A stretch of DNA of 62,662 nucleotides, taken from NCBI RefSeq assembly GCF_008974185.1, contig NZ_BKZP01000020.1, positions 1-62,662 of the forward strand, read 5' to 3'. A program made the translations under genes and the position numbers. Under the pieces are notes generated by a model, which saw only the letters and a list, made by a program, of their open reading frames with translations, did no database searches and was not told where the DNA came from. The stretch's first letter is position 1. Every line of letters starts with the position of its first letter. This document shows positions 13,998 through 20,398 of the stretch, piece after piece. Origin of the DNA: Weizmannia acidilactici (GTDB taxonomy: Bacteria; Bacillota; Bacilli; Bacillales; Bacillaceae_C).

Positions 13998-15143
13998 ATG
14001 AAAATTATCGTTGCAGGCGGGGACGGATTTTGCGGCTGGCCGACAGCACTTTATTTATCCAAACAAGGGCATGATGTCGCCATCATTGACAGTCTGATCC
14101 GGCGCAAATGGGACCGGGAACTCGGCGTCGATTCGCTCACCCCGATTTTCACACTTGAAGAACGGACGCAGCGCTGGTTCGAATTGACCGGCAAACAAAT
14201 CAATACATACTTGGGGGATATGACCCATTTTGACTTTTTAAGGGAAGTGATGCGGCAGGAGCGTCCAGATGCGTTTGTTCATTTTGCGGAGCAAAGGTCT
14301 GCGCCTTACTCCATGATCGACCGGGAACACGCCGTATTTACCCAAACGAATAATGTCGTTGGAACTTTAAATTTAATTTATGCCGTAAAGGAACTTGTGC
14401 CGGACTGCCATATTATTAAACTCGGCACGATGGGCGAATACGGGCAGCCGAATATTGATATTGAAGAAGGCTATATTACGATTTCTCACAACGGCCGGGA
14501 AGATATGCTCCCGTATCCGAAACAGCCTGGTTCCATGTACCATTTATCGAAAGTCCATGACAGCCATAATTTAATGTTTGCCACCAAAAACTGGGGACTG
14601 CGCGTGACGGATTTGAACCAAGGGGTCGTTTACGGGCTGCATACGGATGAAACACAGCTTGATCCTGTCCTTGTCAACCGCCTCGACTATGACGGCGTAT
14701 TCGGTACAGCTTTAAACCGTTTCCTCATCCAGGCGGCGGTCGGGCACAATTTAACCGTATATGGTGCAGGAGGCCAGACGCGCGGCTTTTTAAACATTAA
14801 AGATACCGTCCGCTGCATAGAGATCGCAGCCAATAATCCGGCAGACAGAGGGGAATTCCGTGTGTTCAACCAGTTTACGGAAGAATTCTCGATCCTTGAT
14901 CTTGCCGAAAAAGTGAAACGAGTGGCAGAACATGAAGGCATTCAGGCAACAATAGACCATATTCAAAATCCGAGAAAGGAAAAAGAAGAGCATTATTATC
15001 ATGCCGCCCATACAAAACTCGTAGACCTCGGCCTCAAGCCGCATTTATTAACGGATGACGTGCTACGTGGCATTTTGCTGACTGTGGTTGAATATAAAAA
15101 CCGTGTGGTAATGGAAAAAATAATGCCGGATGTGAAATGGTAA
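13998..15143 (+). CDS. sqdB: UDP-sulfoquinovose synthase (SQD1/SqdB type)
   Basis: A 381-residue extended short-chain dehydrogenase that builds UDP-sulfoquinovose from UDP-glucose and sulfite. It follows plant SQD1 almost motif for motif: [91 protein letters not shown] and [11 protein letters not shown]. Catalytic Thr144-Met145-Glu147 and Tyr181/Lys185 are in place. AGGAGG precedes the ATG at 13998; the 23 codons open upstream lack a ribosome site. It is followed after 18 bases by an SQD2-like glycosyltransferase, which supports a real sulfolipid pathway. Identity is very likely; activity is untested. Confidence 0.9.
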
Positions 15144-15161
15144 CAGAAAGCGGGAGAGGTT

Positions 15162-18621: not shown

Positions 18622-19716
18622 ATGATAGGAAATTACGCAGTCGTCATCCCAGCCCTGAATCCGGAAGAAGAACTGGCCGAGTATGTGGACCGCTTATTGG
18701 AACAAGGGGCGGCACATATTATTGTAGTAGACGATGGGAGCAGTCGGGATCGTGCACATATTTTTTCCAAATTGACCACAAAAAAGAGATGCACTGTCCT
18801 CCACCATCCGGTAAACCGCGGAAAAGGGCGGGCACTTAAAACCGCATTCTCCTATTTTTTAGATCACCTCGGCAATCTGTCCGGCGTGATTACCGCGGAT
18901 TCGGACGGCCAGCACAGCGCGGAAGATGTGGAAAAGGTCGCAGCCGCACTGGAGCATAACCGGGACAGCATCATATTGGGGTCGAGGGACTTCAGCCTGG
19001 AATACGTGCCCCCAAAAAGTAAATTTGGCAATCAATTGACGAGCTTTCTGTTCAAAGTGCTGTACGGCGAAAACATCGGGGATACACAAACGGGGCTGCG
19101 TGGTATTCCGAAGCAGGAACTCCCGTGGATGATCAAACTGAAAGGAGAACGGTTCGAGTATGAAATGAATATGCTGATCTATGCCAGAAAAATGAACGTG
19201 CGGATCCGTGAAGTGCCGATCCGGACGATTTATTTCAACCGCAACGAAGGCACCCACTACCGTTCGGTAAAGGATTCTTTGAAAATTTTCCGAAAAATCT
19301 TGTCCGGCTTGTTTTATTATTCTTATCCGGCACTCCTTTTTTTCATAATCGATATACTCAGTTTCTCTTTTTTATACCATTATGTAATCAATGGAATTCC
19401 GCATTTATGGAAATTGCTGGCTGCAACAGCTGCGTCGCAAATCATTGCCTTTGCCGTCCTTCTTCTTGTAAAACAAAAGCTGTTGAAATGGAAACGTTTT
19501 TTAGTGAAATACATTTTTGTCTGCCTTTCTTTTATTGTCGTTTCCTTTTTACTAATTGAAGCCGGATCCGGACTATTGCAATTCAATCTCGTTTTTGCCA
19601 AAGCTGCCGCGAGCGTGCTTCTCGCCCTTGCATTTTATCAAATCCAGCTCCATTGGGATGTGTTTGATGCGTTTTACCAGCATGGGCATCTGGCGGGGGA
19701 ACGGCGCCATGGCTGA
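18622..19716 (+). CDS. Membrane-anchored GT2 glycosyltransferase (DPM1/GtrB-like)
   Basis: A 364-residue protein. N-terminal GT-A domain (1-225): VVIPALNPEEELAEYV, IIVVDDGSS, HPVNRGKGRALKTAF, TADSDGQH (DxD-like), GDTQTGLRGIP, ERFEYEMNML. The C-terminal third has about four hydrophobic helices of GtrA type. Such enzymes move sugars from a nucleotide to polyprenyl phosphate or lipid. GGGGGG stands eight bases before the ATG. Its stop overlaps the start of the next gene, a PlsC-like acyltransferase, so both are co-translated. Following the sqdB/SQD2 pair, it may extend or modify a glycolipid; the actual acceptor is unknown. Confidence 0.85.
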   Translation: MIGNYAVVIPALNPEEELAEYVDRLLEQGAAHIIVVDDGSSRDRAHIFSKLTTKKRCTVLHHPVNRGKGRALKTAFSYFLDHLGNLSGVITADSDGQHSAEDVEKVAAALEHNRDSIILGSRDFSLEYVPPKSKFGNQLTSFLFKVLYGENIGDTQTGLRGIPKQELPWMIKLKGERFEYEMNMLIYARKMNVRIREVPIRTIYFNRNEGTHYRSVKDSLKIFRKILSGLFYYSYPALLFFIIDILSFSFLYHYVINGIPHLWKLLAATAASQIIAFAVLLLVKQKLLKWKRFLVKYIFVCLSFIVVSFLLIEAGSGLLQFNLVFAKAAASVLLALAFYQIQLHWDVFDAFYQHGHLAGERRHG

Positions 19717-20398
19717 AGGATACGGATTATTTTTTAAAACAGTCCGGAAGTTTGCGCGGTTTTTTTATCCTTCTTATCATACCGAAATTTCCGGGGAAAT
19801 CGACGGCCCTGCCGTTTATATTTCGCATCACCGCAATTTATTCGGACCGTTCATCACGCTGCTATGGTATCCGAAATTTGTCCGCACCTGGATCCTGCAC
19901 GTTTTTCTTGACCGGAAATCGTGCAGCAAACAATATGCTGATTACACGTTCACTAAAAGATTCGGATTGCCCTTGGTATTGGCTAAACCTGCCGCATTTT
20001 TGTTGTCGCTCGGGATTACAAAACTGTTGCAATCCGGCAGAGGTATTCCGGTTTACCGGGGGACGAGAAAGATCGTCCGGACGTTTCAGATAAGCGTCGA
20101 GGCTTTAAAAAAAGGGGAAAGCATCGCCATTTACCCCGATATTGACTATACAGACCGTTCGGCTTCCGTAAAGGATATGTATGCCGGCTTTCTATATATG
20201 GAAAAATATTTTTACAAAGCAACCGGTCGGCATGTCCAGTTTGTCCCTTTATACGCAAGCAAAAAGAAACGCCTGCTGATCGCAGGCGCCCCGATTTTTT
20301 TCCGGGATGGGGAAGACTTCCGGACGGAAAAAGATGTTGTTTACAAAAAATTACATATGGCATTAAACCGGCTGGCGGCCCGGTGCGGGGAGCTTTGA
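19709..20398 (+). CDS. PlsC-like lysophospholipid acyltransferase family protein
   Basis: A 229-residue protein of the 1-acylglycerol-phosphate acyltransferase fold: VYISHHRNLFGPF in place of the NHxxxxD motif, GRGIPVYRGTRKIVRTF (block II), GESIAIYPDIDYTDRS (block III, normally FPEG). The catalytic HxxxxD aspartate is missing (HHRNLFG), so it is either an unusual member or has lost acyltransferase chemistry. The start overlaps the GT2 gene by eight bases. The frame is open upstream inside that gene, but those codons are the overlapping gene. Genetic coupling to a glycosyltransferase suggests acylation of a glycolipid (inference). Confidence 0.75.
   Translation: MAEGYGLFFKTVRKFARFFYPSYHTEISGEIDGPAVYISHHRNLFGPFITLLWYPKFVRTWILHVFLDRKSCSKQYADYTFTKRFGLPLVLAKPAAFLLSLGITKLLQSGRGIPVYRGTRKIVRTFQISVEALKKGESIAIYPDIDYTDRSASVKDMYAGFLYMEKYFYKATGRHVQFVPLYASKKKRLLIAGAPIFFRDGEDFRTEKDVVYKKLHMALNRLAARCGEL

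Follow-up and report, generated by a model that had tools for sequence, protein, structure and literature searches.

A likely sulfoquinovosyl diacylglycerol gene cassette in Weizmannia acidilactici and its relatives among the Bacillota

Introduction

Sulfoquinovosyl diacylglycerol (SQDG) is known from chloroplasts, and textbooks present it as a lipid of photosynthetic membranes. What, then, would a gene resembling plant SQD1, followed closely by a glycosyltransferase gene, be doing in Weizmannia acidilactici, a Gram-positive bacterium of the Bacillota? The question is raised by contig NZ_BKZP01000020.1 of assembly GCF_008974185.1, and “the window” here means that whole stretch of 62,662 nucleotides. 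A first-pass annotation of its letters had proposed a complete pair of SQDG genes embedded in a wider glycolipid island at about 14–20.4 kb. We argue that the two genes in question, sqdB and the gene of a family 4 glycosyltransferase (GT4), most likely make SQDG (a probability of about 0.8, judged from the sequences), and that the island shrinks to a small cassette.

In the pathway as outlined in PMC8227023 (this paper and the others cited below are represented by excerpts), SQD1/SqdB makes UDP-sulfoquinovose and SQD2/SqdX moves the sugar to diacylglycerol. In the window, SqdB would make UDP-sulfoquinovose from UDP-glucose and sulfite, and the GT4 would place the sulfoquinovose onto diacylglycerol; the product, SQDG, is an anionic membrane lipid. 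The sulfite would come from the cell's reductase for 3'-phosphoadenosine-5'-phosphosulfate or adenosine-5'-phosphosulfate (PAPS/APS reductase). The genome encodes a protein of the PAPS reductase family PF01507 (203.6 bits), and therefore sulfite should be available; by eye, the open reading frame (ORF) after it is permease-like. Within the phylum, the polar lipids of Oceanobacillus massiliensis include SQDG (PMC4062624), and sulfoquinovosyls are reported from Acididesulfobacillus acetoxydans, among its intact polar lipids (PMC8982180); congeners or kin of these species carry the linked pair (loci L064 and L070 of Oceanobacillus; L094 of Desulfosporosinus). Sequence, conserved adjacency and co-occurrence all speak well for assigning the pair to SQDG synthesis, while the activity, the diacylglycerol acceptor and the expression of the genes are inferred.

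The UDP-sulfoquinovose synthase gene

The first gene of the pair, at 13998..15143 on the forward strand, encodes 381 amino acids and, judging from its sequence, is a UDP-sulfoquinovose synthase of the SQD1/SqdB type. Its product aligns from end to end with the chain of Arabidopsis SQD1 (PDB 1qrr_A; residues 2–381 with chain residues 3–382, 553 bits, E = 3.2e-165), and all of its matches in the whole PDB at E = 1e-20 or better are SQD1 (three distinct sequences). The catalytic triad of SQD1 is named as Thr145, Tyr182, and Lys186 (PMC4388408), and because the alignment is offset by one residue throughout, these residues can be assigned to T144, Y181, and K185 of the window protein, which are unchanged in all eight Bacilli SqdB proteins aligned. 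The next NCBIfam family of short-chain dehydrogenases/reductases (SDR) scores only 53.9 bits. An AGGAGG sequence precedes the ATG. The SQD1 motifs quoted in the first-pass annotation are present in the ORF, and its reading of this gene holds. The window protein thus shares full-length alignment, triad, and motifs with the plant enzyme; unlike it, SqdB is bacterial and is encoded in an operon-like pair with its own transferase.

The glycosyltransferase gene

Eighteen bases past the sqdB stop begins the second gene, at 15162..16316 on the same strand, whose 384-amino-acid product we propose to be a sulfoquinovosyltransferase of the SqdX type. Both PF13439 and PF00534 match it above their Pfam cut-offs, which places it in the GT4 class, whereas the NCBIfam model of monoglucosyl-diacylglycerol synthase (NF049988) reaches 94.5 bits against a cut-off of 400. 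In a quick tree of 101 GT4 proteins, the 85 from sqdB-containing genomes (81 adjoining sqdB and four encoded elsewhere) were split from 16 chosen paralogues with a Shimodaira–Hasegawa-like approximate likelihood ratio support of 98; the program flagged long branches, among them L133, L218, L265, and L266.

The first-pass annotation had also pointed to two sequence words, SYHT..P.Y and LWKRGVD, which it took to be specific to SQD2. The former occurs in 63 of the 81 sqdB-linked GT4s, in three of the four unlinked ones from sqdB genomes and in none of the 16 paralogues, and so marks the clade fairly well. The latter is not SQD2-specific: its exact form is found in 16 of the 81 linked proteins and also in one paralogue of the 16 (L252), and the relaxed form LW.RG[VI]D in 26/81 linked proteins, three of the four unlinked ones, and 3/16 paralogues. 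Thus the GT4 resembles SQD2/SqdX in its domains and in its partnership with SqdB by position and co-occurrence, while the signature words are only partly specific. A PDB search with the GT4 found no SQD2, and cyanobacterial GT4s taken from plasmid records are only 31.7% identical to it.

Adjacency and co-occurrence of the two genes

A scan of a genome collection, with eight Bacilli SqdB proteins as queries, gave at least 506 relatives, of which the best 80 named loci were compared with the window. Their sqdB products are 68–77% and their GT4s 49–65% identical to those of the window, and the sample leans to close kin because only the best matches were taken. In 76 of these 80 Bacillota loci, the GT4 gene lies directly downstream of sqdB on the same strand, with 11–234 bp between the matched segments. 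Gene order and strand are as in the window in sqdB-GT4-(gtrA) loci of Halobacillus, Gracilibacillus, Planococcus, Marinococcus, Salinicoccus, Oceanobacillus, Paenibacillus, and Alicyclobacillus; the window differs in its shortened gtrA and in belonging to a genus with the pair in one of five genomes. The four loci lacking an adjoining GT4 are L061, where the contig ends just past sqdB, and L099, L101, and L109. In the last three, sqdB seems, by eye, to follow a lipid gene, one resembling phosphatidylserine decarboxylase.

Co-occurrence was scored over 398 Bacilli genomes. At E = 1e-80 or better, sqdB is present in 57 of them, from 28 of the 145 genera, two of the 57 matches being only 46% identical. 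The GT4 scores leave a gap between a high group (at least 299.6 bits) and a low one (at most 270.7 bits), and the cut for presence was placed in this gap after it had been seen; at most four GT4 candidates were scored per genome, so that a miss is possible. By this cut, a close GT4 is found in 56 of the 57 sqdB genomes and in none of the 341 genomes without sqdB; the p value of Fisher's test (6e-68) takes no account of kinship and makes the association look stronger than it is. In one genome (G330), the close GT4 lies on a contig other than C56. Among the 34 genomes of the window's family, sqdB is present in two and the strong GT4 in the same two, and a 37% identical paralogue was seen in G011. 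A further genome, G401 of the Alicyclobacillaceae-like family f22, has four close GT4 homologues and a single sqdB, and the transferase therefore seems to have multiplied there.

The tree distances of SqdB and GT4 are correlated over 81 taxa (r = 0.84, with none of 999 permutations as high), which speaks for co-inheritance and not for function because any co-inherited genes would correlate. In both trees, the nearest row to the window is L119, from another genus of the same family. By a hand-written Nei–Gojobori count, the nonsynonymous distance (dN) between the two is 0.09 for sqdB and 0.19 for the GT4 gene, the synonymous distance (dS) being saturated (2.1 and 3.4).

Boundaries of the cassette

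How far does the lipid locus extend? In the complete genome of a congener (G003), window positions 8851–13712 and 16852–20391 are syntenic, and at the corresponding locus (L131), positions 13712 and 16852 of the window fall at 6549 and 6608. The flanks are thus 58 bp apart there as against 3.1 kb in the window, and the cassette absent from this congener spans 13726..16851. In a second congener (G001, locus L132), window positions 13728 and 17661 correspond to 7046 and 7766, with the SoxA-like and the SDR/GT2/PlsC-like sides 720 bp apart; no match to sqdB, GT4, GtrA, or DUF212 was found at this site, which holds repeats instead. Of the four congeners G001–G004, the comparison at this site covers G003 and G001. 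Neither of these two has sqdB at E = 1e-60, and both keep the SoxA-like, SDR, family 2 glycosyltransferase (GT2), and PlsC-like genes without sqdB, GT4, and gtrA.

The related sqdB loci agree. DUF212, GT2, and PlsC occur in none of the best 80 named loci (E = 1e-5, up to 10 kb per side; 70 of the loci are over 21 kb long and two under 12 kb). When ORFs within 6 kb were clustered, the only coding-strand families present in more than 17 of the 80 loci were sqdB (80), GT4 (76), and GtrA (39), three further big clusters being antisense over sqdB or GT4 (44, 24, and 14 loci). Homologues of the GT2 and PlsC-like genes, for their part, adjoin each other in all seven relatives fetched (L121–L127). Because the congeners keep the flanks without the cassette, the 80 loci share none of them, and GT2 and PlsC-like form a separate pair, what remains is a cassette of three genes. 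The genes listed in the first-pass annotation (GtrA-like, PAP2-like, GT2, and a PlsC-like one lacking the HxxxxD aspartate) are all there, whereas the island that they were thought to form is not borne out: the flanking PAP2-like, GT2, and PlsC-like genes have no evident part in the lipid pathway.

We picture sqdB-GT4-(gtrA) as a compact, probably transferable cassette, flanked by a SoxA-like oxidase gene on one side and by DUF212 on the other. Since L119, the nearest relative, holds the three genes in another genomic context, a gain in this lineage explains the site more simply, loss in the congeners being the alternative. No clean repeats flanking the cassette were found, and plasmid records matched the window at the DNA level in tRNA-sized pieces at 8590–8760. 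Its GC content is 0.449 as against 0.506 and 0.467 in the flanks, with similar third-position GC, which is no sign either way.

The gtrA gene and upstream signals

The third gene, gtrA (16313..16678, forward strand), encodes a GtrA-family membrane protein of 121 amino acids (PF04138), and its start overlaps the GT4 stop. A profile search found GtrA in 40 of the 80 loci: directly after GT4 in 38, just before sqdB in L094 and, in L043, 4.9 kb off on the other strand. Among the neighbours of the pair, it alone can be counted as part of the cassette, and this at roughly every second locus. GtrA might be an optional partner dedicated to carrying SQDG across the membrane, a tentative idea that we hold to be unlikely and yet a point worth testing. 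If it is true, gtrA would be a defined gene for sulfolipid trafficking in Gram-positive bacteria, strains in which it is shortened or missing would serve as natural comparisons, and its optional presence would offer a test of SQDG movement.

Upstream of sqdB, Pho-box-like sites were seen at 10 of 82 loci, where 200 single-base shuffles gave 3.5 on average and 9 at most, a weak excess; no such site lies upstream of sqdB in the window. A promoter and terminator scan did no better than shuffles (7 vs 6.9 and 4 vs 6.0), with no clear promoter upstream of the window's sqdB.

Alternative readings

Several points weigh against SQDG synthesis by this pair. In the window's strain the lipid is a prediction from the genes. 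The SqdB scores 480.9 bits on NF041015, the only NCBIfam model for the enzyme, below the cut-off of 575; since this model matches in 13 of 14 control genomes and exceeds its cut-off in one, we take the cut-off to be uninformative here, and the model is presumably tuned to archaeal enzymes. For the GT4, the best NCBIfam model is NF053787, GlcN-phosphatidylglycerol synthase, at 165.4 bits against a cut-off of 480, and its kinship with SQD2/SqdX is a proposal from domains, position, and co-occurrence. Three loci, L099, L101, and L109, all of the Alicyclobacillaceae, have no GT4 beside sqdB, and one genome (G357) has sqdB with no close GT4 found. The window's gtrA ends early at 121 amino acids, a feature missed in the first-pass annotation, where L119 and eight other homologues extend about 15 or more residues further, and its product may be non-functional, to judge from this length. 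Finally, UDP-sulfoquinovose serves a glycan in Sulfolobus (PMC4388408).

This last point leads to the question of whether UDP-sulfoquinovose might feed a cell-wall, teichoic, or S-layer glycan also in the Bacillota, with the GT4 acting on a polyprenyl-linked acceptor and GtrA helping in flipping. Agl3 of Sulfolobus acidocaldarius shares its enzyme superfamily and product with SqdB, and its UDP-sulfoquinovose goes to the S-layer N-glycan (PMC4388408); the 38 loci with gtrA directly after GT4 would also suit such a role. We regard it as very unlikely, given that GT4 and GtrA are the only coding-strand neighbours shared by more than 17 of the 80 loci and no glycan cluster recurs, that no GtrA was found in 40 of the 80 loci, and that sulfoquinovosyl lipids are what the excerpts of PMC4062624 and PMC8982180 report for Bacillota. 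The acceptor could also be a lipid other than diacylglycerol, the product then being a sulfonoglycolipid and not SQDG, as the best model match of the GT4 (about 165 bits vs 480) might suggest. Yet five paralogues unlinked to sqdB score 144–192 bits on the same NF053787, so the match marks the superfamily, and the lipid named for O. massiliensis is SQDG (PMC4062624); these facts make another acceptor highly improbable.

An island for an acylated or further glycosylated SQDG, suggested by adjoining genes that mostly share a strand and are annotated for lipids or glycans, is contradicted and deserves next to no credence, since G003 and G001 hold the flanks without the cassette, DUF212, GT2, and PlsC are absent from the 80 loci, the GT2 and PlsC-like genes make their own pair in 7/7 relatives, and the SDR gene within the stretch is frameshifted. 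That frameshift, together with the early end of gtrA and with the finding of neither a Pho-box-like site nor a clear promoter before the window's sqdB, might instead be read as a cassette in decay whose lipid is no longer made. We think this quite unlikely, because sqdB and the GT4 gene are full length with intact motifs, their dN from L119 is low (0.09 and 0.19), and half of the related loci (40/80) do without any gtrA that could be found.

Distribution and meaning

The first-pass annotation had implied that such a lipid would be rare in Bacillus, which overstates the matter, since 57 of the 398 Bacilli genomes carry sqdB and two species of the Bacillota are reported to contain sulfoquinovosyl lipids. 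The pair is common in related bacteria and of a known kind, an ordinary find, and unusual only within the window's genus, where one genome in five has sqdB. For the window alone, the outcome is an annotation with a correction: two enzyme genes and gtrA, and no island. More broadly, the presence of a two-gene SQDG kit in 28 of the 145 sampled Bacilli genera, in unrelated contexts, would point to a trait that non-photosynthetic Gram-positive bacteria exchange often, and the pair would be a non-photosynthetic source of sulfoquinovose. Alicyclobacillus makes sulfonolipids, on which a literature search turned up nothing to the point; that search also found no paper on sqdB-sqdX in Bacillota, but it was confined to open-licence papers, and its silence does not show that none exist. 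As for the comparison with Agl3, that enzyme serves an N-glycan in Sulfolobus according to the excerpt of PMC4388408, whereas the Bacillota pair has no recurrent glycan genes alongside.

Relatives of SqdB were also seen on at least 96 IMG/VR contigs; in 80 of these (L134–L213) the identity is 39–60%. None of these 80 has a GT4 near the SqdB relative, and at a threshold of E = 1e-40 no SqdB relative turned up in 50,697 phage records. Of 10 ORFs from two of the loci, four have PHROG matches, none structural. The contigs may carry phage-borne sugar genes or be misfiled host DNA, and are not part of the cassette finding.

Flanking genes

Past the cassette lies a DUF212/divergent PAP2 gene (16862..17332, forward strand; PF02681), which is syntenic and 81% identical in G003 and was not found at the G001 site. 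We considered it as part of the genus backbone, which holds for G003 only, G001 having repeats at the site. These repeats, at about 7090–7600 of L132, are of some 50–60 bases and contain the words CGGTCG and TCATCC. Between DUF212 and GT2, and overlooked in the first-pass annotation, is a frameshifted FabG-type SDR gene on the reverse strand (17650..18431), whose two pieces match residues 2–113 and 116–258 of NF004203 and which is a single open frame in L131; the position of the YxxxK lysine also deviates.

The GT2 gene (18622..19716, forward strand; PF00535) has counterparts of 76% (G003) and 62% (G001) identity in the two congeners without sqdB, and its product has a C-terminal membrane part. 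Its partner, the PlsC-like gene (about 19709..20398, forward strand), encodes a protein to which no Pfam family matched and which has HHRNLFG at the position of HxxxxD, the aspartate being absent, as in the orthologues of the two congeners. Further on, at 20662–23595, the start of a sensor gene resembling a methyl-accepting chemotaxis protein runs into transposase-like sequence, followed by pieces of a DDE transposase; synteny with G003 is interrupted from about 21147 to 23946.

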